This document shows, in pieces, positions 17,127 through 21,838 of a stretch of DNA of 64,000 bases. The position numbers and the translations under genes are program-made. The stretch is from Calothrix sp. PCC 7103. GTDB lineage: Bacteria; Cyanobacteriota; Cyanobacteriia; Cyanobacteriales; Nostocaceae. Position 1 is the first letter of the stretch, and the number at the start of each line of letters is the position of its first letter. The stretch lies in the NCBI RefSeq assembly GCF_000331305.1, contig NZ_KB217478.1:7404317-7468316 (forward strand). Reading direction: 5' to 3'. A model generated the notes under the pieces. The model did not search any database. It was not told where the DNA came from and saw only the letters and a list, made by a program, of their open reading frames with translations.

Positions 17127-17360
17127 TCATGCTGCGATAAAGGAAACACTCATTAAATCTGGGGTTACTTCGCCATGTTCTAATCTATCTGCTACTACGT
17201 GTAAAGCTAGAGCTTGGACTTTTGCTATTGCTTCATCGCACGTTTGTCCATATACCAGCACACCAGGTAGTTCCATTACCTCAGCTATCCAGCGTCCATC
17301 GTCTTCAAGTTCAATCTCTATTGTGAAATTCATGGTTGCCTCAACAGTGTTTGTAAACAT
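17127..17360 (-). CDS. HicB-like antitoxin, no HicA partner seen
   Basis: A 77-residue protein whose core, FTIEIELEDDGRWIAEVMELPGVLVYGQTCDEAIAKVQALAL, is the partial RNase H fold of HicB-type proteins. HicB normally neutralises the mRNA-cleaving toxin HicA. Here no HicA-like ORF lies on either side: the 260 bp downstream contain only repeats, and the upstream neighbour is an ImmA-type peptidase 24 bp away. It may be an orphan or may belong functionally with the ImmA/XRE pair. An internal ATG at codon 10 (MNFTIEIEL) is an alternative start. Confidence 0.75.
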   Translation of the reverse strand: MFTNTVEATMNFTIEIELEDDGRWIAEVMELPGVLVYGQTCDEAIAKVQALALHVVADRLEHGEVTPDLMSVSFIAA

Positions 17361-17384
17361 TTTGGCGTTCTTTAGATACCGATG

Positions 17385-18020
17385 TTAACTTAAAGCTTTT
17401 CCCGGATAAATTTGTTTAGTACCTCTGGGAATGTTAATTAGTCCTAGGTCTTGTAAACGTCTTGTCAAATTAGAAATGGTTACTCCCATCTCATCTCTAA
17501 TAGCGTAAAGATGGCGCCAGTTTGTTAAGTCGCGTCCTCGTTGTACTTCTTCTATTTTAAATTTAGGCATTAACAGACATGCTGCGAAATGTTGAGCTTG
17601 CCATTCTATACCTTGTTGAGCATTGATATTACGACATAAAAATGGCTCAGTAATTATTTCTCTACCATCTTGCTTCATTTCTTCGACTTGCTGCACTACA
17701 TTTTGGTCAATGTGAAGCTCCCAATGTCCAATTTCATGAGCAGTACAAGATTCTTCAAACCCACGAGGAAATTCTAAACTATTTTCATTTAGTACAATCA
17801 TGCGGTCTACAGGTAAAATCATAGCGGCAATTGCACCCTGCTCGTCAGGTGAAATTTTTCCGCAGTCCATATCTAGACCGAGCGCTTCTGCTAAATGACC
17901 CGCATCAAGTGGGAATTTAAGAGGTCGTTTGCGTTTTGCTTGTACACGCATGAGAACATCTGTTGCTCGACGCTCTATTTCTTCTTTAGGTAGAAATTTA
18001 TATGGTTTGATAACCTTCAA
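17385..18020 (-). CDS. ImmA/IrrE family metallopeptidase
   Basis: A 211-residue protein with the zinc-peptidase motif CTAHEIGHWELH (H95, E96, H99), typical of the ImmA/IrrE (DUF955) family. Known members cleave a paired XRE repressor (ImmA on ImmR in ICEBs1, IrrE on DdrO). The N-terminal ~50 residues are helical and the C-terminus (ISNLTRRLQDLGLI) looks like a small winged-helix. It overlaps the upstream XRE gene by 4 bp, so the two are translationally coupled. The inferred role is to inactivate that repressor on a stress or invasion signal, which would release both this operon and the divergent Argonaute operon. Confidence 0.83.
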   Translation of the reverse strand: MKVIKPYKFLPKEEIERRATDVLMRVQAKRKRPLKFPLDAGHLAEALGLDMDCGKISPDEQGAIAAMILPVDRMIVLNENSLEFPRGFEESCTAHEIGHWELHIDQNVVQQVEEMKQDGREIITEPFLCRNINAQQGIEWQAQHFAACLLMPKFKIEEVQRGRDLTNWRHLYAIRDEMGVTISNLTRRLQDLGLINIPRGTKQIYPGKALS

Positions 18021-18385
18021 GTCAACTTCTCCTCACAGTCTTGATTCGTTTGTTGTAGCAATTTTTGAGCAAATTCTGGCTCATCACGCATTCTTCGTAG
18101 TAATGCAGGCATTTGTTTATACTTTTTAACCAACTCTTCAAACACTTTGGTTTCATCCGGCGAAATTCTGCCTGCAAGTCGTCGTAATTCGTCCTTGCGG
18201 TCAGTCAAGTCAAGGTGATGAGCTAATAAATCAATAACGTCTTCACTAGGAGGATAGCCTGCATGGTCATTTTCTAGCTTCGACAAATAGGTATAATCAA
18301 CTTTAATCAGTTTCGCAAGTTCGCGCTGACTGTACTCCTTCTGCTTGCGTGCAGTACGAATCAATTTACCAAAAGTCTCGCTCAC
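18017..18385 (-). CDS. XRE-family helix-turn-helix repressor
   Basis: A 122-residue protein. Residues 5-60 form a Cro/C1-type HTH (FGKLIRTARKQKEYSQRELAKLIKVDYTYLSKLENDHAG). The C-terminal half is charged and helical (LVKKYKQMPALLRRMRDEPEFAQKLL), as in repressors paired with ImmA/IrrE peptidases. It overlaps the metallopeptidase by 4 bp and is divergent from the Cas4-like/Argonaute operon. The perfect palindrome at 18453-18475, about 70 bp upstream of its ATG, is the best candidate operator. Repression of both directions is an inference. Confidence 0.85.
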   Translation of the reverse strand: MSETFGKLIRTARKQKEYSQRELAKLIKVDYTYLSKLENDHAGYPPSEDVIDLLAHHLDLTDRKDELRRLAGRISPDETKVFEELVKKYKQMPALLRRMRDEPEFAQKLLQQTNQDCEEKLT

Positions 18386-18452
18386 GGCTTTCTCCGTTAA
18401 ATTTTAAGATTCATTACCTACCTTGACTTTATCTTGACATTCGGCGAAACTA

Positions 18453-18475
18453 AAGTTGACTAAATTGGTCAACTT
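18453..18475. promoter_or_regulatory. Perfect 8-7-8 palindrome, likely XRE operator
   Basis: AAGTTGAC (18453-18460), a 7-bp spacer TAAATTG, and GTCAACTT (18468-18475) form a perfect dyad in the 148-bp gap between the divergent XRE and Cas4-like genes. Further TTGAC-type half sites lie at 18423 and 18434. It is placed to control both operons. Confidence 0.65.
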
Positions 18476-18533
18476 GAACAATATGAACACTATAATACAT
18501 TTAAGCATTTATTGCCAATGATGGAACTAGGGA

Positions 18534-19361
18534 GTGAAAGAAGTGGGGAAAATTTGGAATTCTGCTAGCTATAACTTGCTGCTACTGCATTCTCCACCAG
18601 TTGGATTAGAACATTTGCACTGCGATATGAAGAGAGGTTTTAGTAAAGCGCGAAAGAAAGAACCTCAAGTAGCAAAGCTTTTAGAGTTAGATAATACGTA
18701 CCAAAGAATAGGACTGCTAGCACAAAGAGGGGTTTATGAGTTTCATAACGATATGTCGCTATTAGGCGCCAGTAATGGTGTGAGTCAGGTTGCAGAAACT
18801 CTGGAACTTGGTAAAGAGTCAGATGTAGTTCAACAACGTGTTTTGACTGTCCTTAAGAATTATTACGAGAGTCCAATTCTAGTAGACAAAGATATTGTTA
18901 AGCTGAGTCACGGGAATGAGGACTTTCCAGAACCAATTTTGATTAAACTAGGCAGTTACTCGTTTAATTTATACGCAGCAATTGATTGTATTTTTAAAGA
19001 GCTTGATGGAACGCTACATATTTTAGATTTCAAAACGGGTAAGTCAGACTTTGATAGACGACAAGCTTACATATATTTGTTAGTTGCTAGTTATTTATAC
19101 CCAGACAATAAACCAATAGCTTCGTTTTACAACTTGGAAACTAACACATGGTCAAAAAAGATTTCAGCTTCAGCAGAGATACTGGAAGTTTATAAGTATA
19201 ATTTGATGCAAGTTTCTAAAAAGCATCAAGAAAGTTTGTTTCTTTATCGAAATAACCCTGATAAGTTTAGTCAAATATATCCTGCTAACCCTGGTACTTC
19301 TTGCCGTTATTGTCCTTTTACTTCAATTTGTAATTTTGCATTTATCTCAGAGGCCAAATGA
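18534..19361 (+). CDS. Cas4-like PD-(D/E)XK nuclease with Fe-S cysteines
   Basis: A 275-residue nuclease. The active site reads D151 (LYAAIDCIF), then D165 and K167 (LHILDFKTGKSDF), the D-x14-D-x-K pattern of RecB/Cas4 nucleases. Four cysteines, C30 near the N-terminus and C257, C260, C266 near the C-terminus (CRYCPFTSIC), match the [4Fe-4S] cluster of Cas4 and AddB. Its stop overlaps the Argonaute start (ATGA). No cas1, cas2 or CRISPR array is near, so it belongs to the Argonaute system. The first start is GTG 18534; GTG 18543 has better spacing (8 nt) from GGAG at 18531-18534. It may process or trim DNA for Argonaute guide loading. Confidence 0.85.
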   Translation: MKEVGKIWNSASYNLLLLHSPPVGLEHLHCDMKRGFSKARKKEPQVAKLLELDNTYQRIGLLAQRGVYEFHNDMSLLGASNGVSQVAETLELGKESDVVQQRVLTVLKNYYESPILVDKDIVKLSHGNEDFPEPILIKLGSYSFNLYAAIDCIFKELDGTLHILDFKTGKSDFDRRQAYIYLLVASYLYPDNKPIASFYNLETNTWSKKISASAEILEVYKYNLMQVSKKHQESLFLYRNNPDKFSQIYPANPGTSCRYCPFTSICNFAFISEAK

Positions 19362-21598
19362 ATACTACCGAAGTTCAAAAACAAAAAGACTCTACAGCTT
19401 CATCACCAATGTTTGTATCTGAAATTTTTCCATTAATAACTTTGCAATATAATATTTGGTGCTTTCGCTTATCTCCTGAAGTAGATAGAGAAGTTGGCAA
19501 TCGTATAAGTTGGCGTTTCAGTCAGCAATTCCCTGATATAGTAGTTATTTGGCACAATGGATTTTTCTGGGTATTAGGTAAACTCAATCAATCTATGCCG
19601 AATGTAGAAGAATGGAAAAAAGCATTAAAATCTATTGAACTAAAATTAAAGCAGGATATTGGAGAGCGTGAGCATATTATTCAACCGTTACGTCAGCCAA
19701 ACGTAACACAAGAAGTATTAGCAGAGTTAGCGGTAAGGGCATTAAAAATAACTCGCCCATTTATATCCCCAGTTTTAAATCCAAATGAACAAGTACAGGT
19801 AAAACGAGAAGTTGATTTTTGGGCAGAGACAGTAGAAATTAAAGGTAATATTCGTCCTGCATTAAGTTTTACAACTCACAGTAGCTTTAATTACAAAGGA
19901 GACTTAGCTGATTTTTTCTCAAATCATCCTTTTCGTCAAAACCCGGAAAAATTATTAGTTGGTTTAAAAGTTCGAGATATTGAGCGCAATAGCTTTGCAA
20001 CAATAGTGGAAATATCTGGAACTATTGGTGAACTCGCAGAAAGACTAATAGAAGAAGCATCTGGCGCCATTAGTAAACAAGCTTTAATAGAAGCGCTTGA
20101 AGACAACCCAGACCAACCTGTTGTTTCAGTACGTTTTGGAAAAGATAAAAGATTATTCCAGTACGCAATGAAAGCTTTACGTCCATGTGTAACACCAGAA
20201 ACAGCTAGCCGTTTCGATGTTAACTATGGTGAGTTACTTAAAGCGAGTAAAATATCATACATCGAAAGGAAAAAGCTATTACTTGGATATAAGGAGGAGG
20301 CAAATAAAGTTCTTGCCTCTTATGGGTTTCAAATAGAAAGTAGTATCAATAGCAAGCAGTACCCACAATTATTTATTTCGCCAAAAGTTAATTTAAAAGA
20401 TGTAAAACTTCTGTTTGGTGGCAATGTTATAAATGAGCAAGGAAAAATATTACTAGGTTTATCAAAAGGAGGTGTTTATCGGCGCCATAAAAAGTATGAA
20501 GATAAATCAGTGCCAATTCATATCGCAGCTTTAAAACTATTTGATACTAAGGTTGGCCTGATAGGAGATGTTAGAAAACGCTTGAAAGATTATGGTTTTT
20601 CTACTCTTGTTCCCGAAGAAAGTAAAAAAGCTGTGTCTATTGCTGGTTTATCAGGAACTGAAGTACGCGCGAAAGTCGAAGATGCAGTTGATGAGTTAAT
20701 GGAAAATGAACCAGATATTGTTTTAGTCTTTTTGCCTACAAGTGACCGTAAAGCCGAAGAACAAGATAGTTTATATACTTGGATTTACTCGCGTTTGCTA
20801 CGACGTGGGATAGCTAGCCAGGTAATTTATGAAGATACATTACAAAATGTACAAGCGAGCTATCTGCTAAATCAGGTAATTCCTGGAATTTTAGCTAAAT
20901 TAGGAAATCTTCCATTCGTTTTAGCTGAACCCCTAGCCATAGCAGATTTTTTTATCGGTTTGGATATTTCTAGGAATTCCAAAAAACGAGTAGTTGGAAG
21001 TGTTAATGCCTGTGCTAGCGTTCGTCTATATGGAAATAGAGGAGATTTCGAGGGCTACCGTATCGAAAGCGATACAATTGAAGGTGAAGAAATTCCTCAA
21101 CGTATCCTCGAAAACTTCTTCCCCAAATCTCAGTTAAAGGGAAAAACCGTTTTGATTTACCGTGATGGGCGTTTCTGTGGAGACGAAGTTAAACACTTAC
21201 TAGCTAGAGCAGATGCTATAGGCGCCAAATTTATTTTAGTTGAGTGTGCAAAATCAGGTATTCCAAGACTTTACAACTCAGTTAACAAAAATATCACCGC
21301 ACCAACACAAGGATTAGCCCTACGTCTATCGCAAAGAGAAGCGATTATCATTACAACTAATGTGTTAGAAAAAATGGGTTCACCGTTACCGCTACGCCTA
21401 AAAATCCATCCTGGTGGACATCAAGTCTCAATTGAGGACTTAGTAGATGCTACTTTAAAGCTGACTCTACTACATCATGGTTCTCTAAAATCGCCACGTT
21501 TACCTATACCCTTATTTGGTTCTGACAGGATAGCTTACCGCCGCTTGCAAGGTATTTATCCTGGCGCCTCAGAAGGAGATAGACAATTTTGGCTTTAA
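19358..21598 (+). CDS. Long prokaryotic Argonaute (PIWI domain, apparently active)
   Basis: A 746-residue protein with N-terminal and PAZ-like regions (to about 330), a MID domain (about 380-530) and a C-terminal PIWI domain (530-746). PIWI motifs are FIGLDIS (D536), YRDGRFCGDE (D603) and LPIPLFGSDRIAYR (D723), with a candidate glutamate finger in the 570-580 EGEEIP stretch, so the DEDD tetrad appears intact. MID pocket candidates are Q488 (GIASQVI) and K514 (ILAKLGN). Length and motifs resemble the cyanobacterial SeAgo branch, DNA-guided DNA endonucleases known from Synechococcus. It is translationally coupled to the Cas4-like gene. Expected action is DNA interference against plasmids, phages or replication termini. 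Guide type is inferred, not visible. Confidence 0.9.
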   Translation: MNTTEVQKQKDSTASSPMFVSEIFPLITLQYNIWCFRLSPEVDREVGNRISWRFSQQFPDIVVIWHNGFFWVLGKLNQSMPNVEEWKKALKSIELKLKQDIGEREHIIQPLRQPNVTQEVLAELAVRALKITRPFISPVLNPNEQVQVKREVDFWAETVEIKGNIRPALSFTTHSSFNYKGDLADFFSNHPFRQNPEKLLVGLKVRDIERNSFATIVEISGTIGELAERLIEEASGAISKQALIEALEDNPDQPVVSVRFGKDKRLFQYAMKALRPCVTPETASRFDVNYGELLKASKISYIERKKLLLGYKEEANKVLASYGFQIESSINSKQYPQLFISPKVNLKDVKLLFGGNVINEQGKILLGLSKGGVYRRHKKYEDKSVPIHIAALKLFDTKVGLIGDVRKRLKDYGFSTLVPEESKKAVSIAGLSGTEVRAKVEDAVDELMENEPDIVLVFLPTSDRKAEEQDSLYTWIYSRLLRRGIASQVIYEDTLQNVQASYLLNQVIPGILAKLGNLPFVLAEPLAIADFFIGLDISRNSKKRVVGSVNACASVRLYGNRGDFEGYRIESDTIEGEEIPQRILENFFPKSQLKGKTVLIYRDGRFCGDEVKHLLARADAIGAKFILVECAKSGIPRLYNSVNKNITAPTQGLALRLSQREAIIITTNVLEKMGSPLPLRLKIHPGGHQVSIEDLVDATLKLTLLHHGSLKSPRLPIPLFGSDRIAYRRLQGIYPGASEGDRQFWL

Positions 21599-21667
21599 AT
21601 ATAAAAGTAAAAAACATATCAGTTACCAACAATTTGTACCCCTTATGAACTGATGGGAGAATAAACA

Positions 21668-21838
21668 ATGCTAACAAATGAAATTCTGGAAGAAATTTAT
21701 CAGTATCGTGAAGCTCAGGCTGAATCATTTAACTATGATGTATCAGCAATCTTCAAAGACTCGCGCGCTCGTCAAGCTCAAAGTGGTAGACCCTCGGTTA
21801 GCTTACCTCCGAAACAGCCTATTGCACGCTCAAAGTAG
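21668..21838 (+). CDS. 56-aa small protein downstream of the Argonaute
   Basis: ATG at 21668 to TAG at 21836-21838 encodes MLTNEILEEIYQYREAQAES and onward, with FNYDVSAIFKD and a C-terminal RPSVSLPPKQPIARSK. The acidic helix, FNYD and SLPPK pattern resembles, from memory, small antitoxin-like hypothetical proteins common in cyanobacteria. No toxin gene follows. It begins 69 bp after the Argonaute stop, with GGGAGAAT (21654-21661) as a ribosome binding site, so it may be the last gene of that operon. It was too short for a standard ORF cutoff. Function unknown. Confidence 0.62.
   Translation: MLTNEILEEIYQYREAQAESFNYDVSAIFKDSRARQAQSGRPSVSLPPKQPIARSK

Follow-up and report, generated by a model that had tools for sequence, protein, structure and literature searches.

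When, and by what means, is a long prokaryotic Argonaute (pAgo) expressed? This question is raised by positions 17127–21838 of a 64,000-nucleotide stretch of DNA (the window) from the 11.58-Mb genome of the cyanobacterium Calothrix sp. PCC 7103, in which the genes for a pAgo and its Cas4-family partner, ACE1, lie divergent to genes for an XRE-family helix-turn-helix (HTH) protein and an ImmA/IrrE-type peptidase. The gene order, its conservation, a palindrome between the divergent genes, the predicted fold of ImmA and conserved active-site residues are observed. We consider it probable that they represent an inducible Argonaute system, in which XRE would repress ace1-pago and stress-activated ImmA would cut XRE. 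The ACE1–pAgo effector is already known; the new part is the XRE–ImmA control module. The features are as follows.

18455–18473, no strand: palindrome GTTGACTAAATTGGTCAAC in the gap separating xre from ace1; 19 bp, 6-bp arms perfect; candidate XRE operator
18017–18385, minus strand: XRE-family HTH gene (xre), putative repressor; 122 aa, GTG start; PF01381, E-value 6.4e-11
17385–18020, minus strand: ImmA/IrrE-type zinc peptidase gene (M78; immA); 211 aa, TTG start; PF06114, E-value 4.3e-7; PADLOC capP, 2.5e-16
18534–19361, plus strand: ACE1, Argonaute-associated Cas4-family PD-(D/E)XK nuclease; 275 aa; possible start at either of two GTG codons
19358–21598, plus strand: long-A pAgo; 746 aa; DEDD tetrad D536/E577/D603/D723
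17127–17360, minus strand: HicB-like orphan antitoxin gene, a bystander; 77 aa; Pfam matches below cut-off
21668–21838, plus strand: 56-aa open reading frame (ORF) 3' of pago, function unassigned, kept out of the module

The five named genes and two 4-base overlaps (xre with immA; ace1 with pago, as ATGA) were confirmed in the ORFs, as an earlier note made from the DNA letters alone had placed them. The palindrome is absent from that note's account.

Conservation of the pair and of a palindrome

The pair was traced through loci carrying both pAgo and ACE1 (numbered L). A class-wide sample of 388 genomes gave 49 matches to the pAgo profile and 49 to the ACE1 profile, weak ones included. Together with a search for relatives and named contigs, this sample supplied a first set of 38 loci, in which near-identical pairs were retained (e.g. 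L098/L113, 98.4%); loci with a broken or missing pAgo or ACE1 (L009, L011, L119, L125, L126, L127, L148, and L149) fall outside the count. A held-out search, with profiles and pattern frozen, covered 386 genomes of the phylum and 217 of the family and fetched 35 further loci, of which six (L165, L167, L175, L176, L178, and L196) were removed as redundant (pAgo at least 97% identical to that of a first-set locus or of a held-out locus already listed), leaving 29. Neighbourhoods described by eye, in the first set and around ImmA genes, cover the neighbours listed.

Homologous XRE and ImmA genes are divergent to ace1 in 25 of the 38 first-set loci. Among the held-out loci, 17 of 29 contain both genes, two XRE only, two ImmA with XRE broken or missing, and eight neither; the pair is divergent to ace1 in 16 of the 29, and in the seventeenth (L171) it is on the opposite strand, with a 60-base overlap between the predicted starts. 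The divergent arrangement that the earlier note proposed to seek across cyanobacterial genomes is thus present in 41 of 67 pooled loci. The earlier note would have counted absence of these neighbours beside most pAgo relatives as a refutation; both genes occur in 42 of the 67.

On the pAgo tree, the label of an unfused XRE–ImmA pair needs 7 changes, compared with 12.4 in shuffles, suggesting that the pair was gained or lost several times yet is clustered. Distances between first-set proteins correlate with pAgo distances (Mantel r of 0.86 for ACE1, 0.66 for ImmA, and 0.47 for XRE; p = 0.0002 each). The five pAgo loci without an ACE1 match (L128–L132) gave no XRE–ImmA match, and M78 genes are uncommon (28 matches in 16 whole genomes). 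In L004, L012, and L093, a single ORF matches both XRE and ImmA profiles beside further ImmA matches, and Pfam found HTH and M78 domains in the fused ORFs of L004 and L012. By eye, a small ORF co-directional with ace1 was seen between xre and ace1 in L004, L005, L007, L008, L012, L093, and L115. This ORF, a possible third operon gene, is 67 aa in L007, where it has no Pfam match, and is absent from the window.

The strongest evidence for regulation is the palindrome. After duplicates (L094, L123, L124, and L147) had been removed for the dyad, distance and density counts, the DNA upstream of XRE genes near pAgo/ACE1 was scanned de novo. Of the 27 regions, 18 contain GTTGA-N9-TCAAC, the top perfect dyad, whereas across 50 shuffled sets no dyad exceeded 4. 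When the 800 bases upstream of ace1 were searched for GTTGA-N8/9-TCAAC, 21 of 25 XRE+ImmA loci had it, against none of the remaining 13 loci (p = 4.4e-7 by Fisher test, which here and below ignores shared ancestry). In the held-out set, the strict dyad was found in 12 of 17 loci with XRE and ImmA and in 2 of the remaining 12 (p = 0.008), both exceptions being XRE-only loci; when the loci were regrouped by presence of XRE, a grouping chosen after the first had been seen, the figures were 14/19 and 0/10 (p = 2e-4). Near XRE starts, 18.9 kb of DNA contains 41 strict sites, whereas the remaining 1.14 Mb of fetched sequence contains 8; the density near the starts is 310-fold higher. Within the 11.58-Mb genome, the window site is the sole one with fewer than three mismatches, and there are ten other sites with three mismatches, against eight for a reversed control pattern.

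We propose, from the sequence, that the palindrome at 18455–18473 is the XRE operator. Because it is located between divergent genes, it might instead be two promoter −35 boxes that overlap, TTGAC being their consensus, or a conserved sequence without a role for XRE. We regard this as very improbable. The ace1 operons without XRE also need promoters, and yet they have no strict form upstream (0/13 and 0/10, as above); the relaxed form occurs in 2 of 13 first-set loci without XRE+ImmA and in 2 of 10 held-out loci without XRE, compared with all 19 held-out loci with XRE. Moreover, the palindrome is found again upstream of XRE homologues that lie away from pAgo.

The effector pair and the putative repressor-cleaving protease

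The window pAgo is assigned to pAgo_II by PADLOC (1188 bits) and matches 9iad in the Protein Data Bank (PDB), a closely related argonaute, with 1059.5 bits across residues 10–746. The Cas4-like protein is Aga_Cas4-like_Nuc in PADLOC (1.1e-134) and matches PDB 9iab and 9iac by sequence and by fold, at 56–58% identity in Foldseek alignments. The PDB titles of these two entries, released in April 2025, name CtACE1 of Chroococcidiopsis thermalis and MaACE1 of Microcystis aeruginosa, Argonaute-associated Cas4 family protein 1. The predicted ACE1 fold is weak at both ends (mean predicted local distance difference test, pLDDT, 69.8), and its fold matches agree with the sequence search. Because both window proteins are closely related to these solved proteins, with shared catalytic residues and cysteines, the effector pair is, by sequence, the already known cyanobacterial ACE1/long-A pAgo system with its catalytic residues intact; that pAgo with a Cas4-like nuclease had been reported before was also stated in the earlier note. 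A 2025 paper in Molecular Cell reportedly describes cooperation of cyanobacterial Argonautes with Cas4-family nucleases against invading DNA. In the known system, a pAgo–ACE1 complex reportedly acts on invading DNA.

The residues named in the earlier note held up in alignment. D536, D603, and D723 of pAgo line up with aspartates of AaAgo that we take to be its catalytic residues, and the Glu finger is E577, which 45 of the 46 aligned pAgos retain; the last is a fragment gapped there. Position 723 is D in 42 of the 46, H in two and a gap in two. In ACE1, C30, C257, C260, and C266 together with D151, D165, and K167 are invariant in all ten aligned sequences. A histidine at position 723, giving DEDH instead of DEDD, was seen in nine pAgo–ACE1 loci without XRE–ImmA (L102, L121, and L184–L190); the closest first-set pAgo to L184–L190 is that of L121.

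Cas4 proteins in pAgo operons were listed by Ryazansky et al. (2018; PMC6299218), and regulator, HTH, protease, and peptidase are terms absent from the available main text of that paper. Our literature searches on pAgo, judged by title and the start of the abstract, found no paper on a pAgo controller of the XRE–ImmA kind, the main ACE1 paper lying outside the texts covered.

The ImmA zinc site, HEIGH at 95–99 (H95, E96, and H99) with E139, is invariant in eight of eight aligned sequences. CapP (7t5t) is the best solved relative of ImmA by profile, although a weak one (E-value 0.0015 for the whole and 0.019 for the best stretch). The predicted ImmA fold (pLDDT 86) gave five matches at E-values of 0.001 or below, to CapP 7t5t, IrrE (two entries, including 3dti), and PprI, both with single-stranded DNA (ssDNA; 8sln) and without it, at TM-scores of about 0.5. 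PADLOC scored ImmA as capP with 57.9 bits and XRE as capH with 34.7 bits, with no curated cut-off shown; for XRE, HTH_VI (1.6e-10) ranked first and capH (6.9e-9) second. The PADLOC RmrA models were set aside, as they matched XRE and ImmA partially and, for ImmA, more weakly than capP. Since the nearest solved folds, CapP and IrrE/PprI, are repressor-cleaving proteases, the same role is proposed for ImmA from its predicted fold. The HTH of XRE is standard and conserved. A C-terminal segment of the protein has the consensus MPxLLRRM across 19 aligned sequences; of its residues, L95 and R97 alone are invariant. By analogy with the C-terminal loop of DdrO (PMC10904395), this segment is a plausible candidate cleavage region.

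CapH/CapP is one of the known controllers that the pair resembles. The two share an XRE HTH gene directly adjoining an M78 peptidase gene (by a 4-base overlap here), the HExxH plus distal Glu zinc site, and a position beside a defence operon with a putative site deduced from conservation. CapP is the best PDB match of ImmA by both sequence and fold, but a distant one (20% identity in the fold alignment). In contrast to CapH/CapP, the pair here is divergent from its operon and shares a palindrome with it; some loci carry the pair as one fused protein next to a second ImmA. CapH and CapP, with CapW, are described as ssDNA-responsive controllers of operons of the BREX, Pycsar, CBASS, and DISARM kinds, found beside Bub operons too; the word argonaute is absent from the available main text of this source (PMC13373217). 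IrrE (PprI)/DdrO of Deinococcus has the same peptidase fold (3dti and 8sln) and an HTH repressor partner, but governs DNA-repair genes rather than Argonaute; PprI has a GAF-like domain (PMC10904395), for which the 211-aa window ImmA looks too short. The window XRE also weakly matches the XRE of ICEBs1 (7t8i, E-value 0.0017). ImmA/ImmR of ICEBs1, an M78 peptidase and an XRE repressor, controls a mobile element.

The proposed control circuit and its rivals

We propose that XRE dimers would bind the GTTGA-N8/9-TCAAC palindrome or palindromes between the divergent genes and repress ace1-pago, probably along with xre-immA. A stress signal, most likely ssDNA from DNA damage or invading DNA, would activate ImmA, a zinc protease like CapP and IrrE, which would then cut XRE, probably in its conserved C-terminal segment. 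ACE1 and pAgo would be made as a result, and would process and cut invading DNA. Such a conserved repressor, protease and candidate operator would give a direct, testable answer to how and when long pAgos are expressed in a large cyanobacterial group, and would extend protease-triggered control of immunity to pAgo.

XRE–ImmA could also control ace1-pago in response to something other than DNA damage or ssDNA, such as the redox state or zinc, a protein from a phage or a signal from a mobile element. IrrE has been described as signalling redox state via zinc (PMC7907104), and the window ImmA has 211 aa against 291 residues in solved CapP, so its sensing part may differ. We hold this to be rather unlikely, considering that the closest folds are those of proteases activated by ssDNA (CapP, PMC13373217; PprI, PMC10904395), and that an arh-like operon under the same kind of module is induced by gamma rays, if it really is arh.

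That operon emerged from ImmA genes elsewhere. The 388 genomes gave 35 ImmA-family matches in 31 genomes, of which 17 are beside pAgo/ACE1 genes or a pAgo remnant, 14 are elsewhere, and four weak ones (G297, G327, G256, and G115) are outside the examined set. Ten of the 14 lie opposite genes that belong to a single conserved operon. This operon is complete, with five genes, in L134, L135, and L136; L138, where the contig ends, has its first two. By the XRE gene of these ten loci, the relaxed palindrome was found in nine and the strict form in four. Pfam and NCBIfam gave no gene names for this operon, and a plasmid search with its second gene yielded four distant matches. Its layout recalls arhABCDE of Limnospira PCC 8005. 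That operon has five genes in one direction, ending with two of chromosome-segregation/SMC (structural maintenance of chromosomes) type, lies divergent to the XRE gene arhR, and is induced by gamma rays, 8 to 30-fold (PMC8400943, PMC4398503, and PMC4550399); in three loci the same layout is accompanied by homologous XRE–ImmA. By arithmetic, the published arh identities fit a protein of about 328 aa, and the fourth gene here is 325–352 aa. The arh effector differs from ACE1–pAgo. The ImmA proteins linked to pAgo and those of the arh-like operon fall in largely separate branches. Elsewhere in the Calothrix sp. PCC 7103 genome (L161:5791-7976), two coiled-coil genes resemble the last two of the arh-like operon; no XRE- or ImmA-like ORF was seen there by eye, and no palindrome was found upstream.

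The pairs away from pAgo (14/35 matches) would fit a different reading, in which XRE–ImmA is a stand-alone toxin–antitoxin pair of the COG2856–Xre type, merely neighbouring pAgo in a defence-rich region; XRE–ImmA pairs have indeed been proposed as toxin–antitoxin systems (PMC10538038). This reading appears distinctly improbable, as the pair is divergent to ace1 with a shared palindrome and co-diverges with pAgo, and as the ten operon-facing pairs among the 14 are placed like controllers. A bolder form of the proposed control is doubtful but possible: an SOS-like, LexA-independent XRE–ImmA–palindrome module with two outputs, an arh-like radiation operon and pAgo–ACE1 immunity, in which ssDNA and DNA fragments from ACE1 and pAgo would further activate ImmA. 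Such positive feedback, if true, would commit the cell to DNA interference, and the module may tie Argonaute to the cyanobacterial radiation response.

Several points weigh against the proposed ImmA-triggered induction of ace1-pago and its wider form. XRE binding, XRE cleavage, the trigger and induction are steps that we infer. Two relaxed palindrome copies lie 33–45 bp apart in 17 of 27 regions, whereas the window has just one strict site, and the strict dyad is missing upstream of ace1 in four of the 25 XRE loci of the first set and in five of the 19 held-out ones. A promoter scan of the xre–ace1 region gave no match toward ace1; the sole match is on the minus strand, at 10 of 12 bases with 0.4 expected, and in our reading of the sequence a transcript from it toward xre would begin near 18482 and cross the palindrome. 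Neither homologous gene is intact in 21 of 67 pAgo–ACE1 loci, and therefore the module is not essential; two held-out loci (L166 and L169) keep XRE and the dyad with no ImmA detected. Beyond the shared ancestry that the Fisher tests ignore, the held-out set is drawn largely from the family to which the window belongs (25 of 29 loci). Away from pAgo, the strict dyad accompanies XRE in just 4 of 14 loci, and the top dyad of these 14 regions occurred 4 times against 2 in shuffles, which is weaker than the signal at pAgo loci. Just 3 of these 14 loci have all five genes in the arh layout, and six others (L133, L137, L140, L142, L143, and L144) contain only the last two, coiled-coil, genes. The comparison with arhABCDE, by layout and length only, is a lead, and there is no mention of an ImmA beside arhR in the available text of PMC8400943 and PMC4398503.

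Other control genes and neighbouring features

Of the 38 first-set loci, 13 have no homologous XRE–ImmA pair. In five of them (L099, L100, L101, L103, and L105), the neighbours listed include, by eye, a divergent small gene and a 491–492-aa HTH protein with an HELWH motif, followed by DUF4186 and radical-SAM genes; in L103, from which the domains are taken, Pfam called DUF6932 for the small gene and the HTH, and M78 was not called. These two genes are possibly an unrelated fused repressor–protease or toxin–antitoxin module. In two others (L098 and L113), a different XRE+M78 pair heads an operon upstream of ACE1–pAgo that includes a 5-hmdU DNA kinase-like gene and MazG_C (domains from L113). 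The pAgos of L099 and L113 are 91.5% identical, suggesting that the neighbourhood was swapped fairly recently. The last six (L006, L010, L102, L114, L121, and L122) have no intact homologous pair by profile, and L006 retains an XRE fragment and a relaxed palindrome. Given the loci without the module, unregulated or differently regulated forms of pAgo–ACE1 exist.

The earlier note had also counted the HicB-like gene into the control operon. The XRE–ImmA part of that claim is well supported by the conservation of the pair and by the palindrome, which goes with XRE, but HicB is rejected as a member, since its profile matches only the window and three genomes of the same genus (L009/L123, L011/L124, and L125). 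No match was obtained at other loci of L002–L012 and L093–L151 or at any of the 29 held-out loci. Its two Pfam matches (E-values 0.00094 and 0.0018) are both below Pfam cut-offs, and no HicA partner was recognised by eye among the listed neighbour ORFs, no HicA profile having been run. The 56-aa ORF has no family match in Pfam, PADLOC or NCBIfam.

Searches of viral contigs with ACE1 and with ImmA found no relatives of either. The Calothrix sp. PCC 7103 genome has a second ACE1-like gene (L150:7350-8195), with no pAgo, XRE or ImmA profile match nearby and no strict or relaxed palindrome upstream, and many genomes of the same family match the ACE1 profile but not the pAgo profile. Three further genomes of the genus gave no match in the relatives search. 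The same-genus loci L009/L123, L011/L124, and L125 are broken copies, with shortened ace1 and pAgo, only pAgo pieces beside immA, or a split immA, and Calothrix sp. PCC 7716 carries a pAgo piece 97% identical to the window pAgo.

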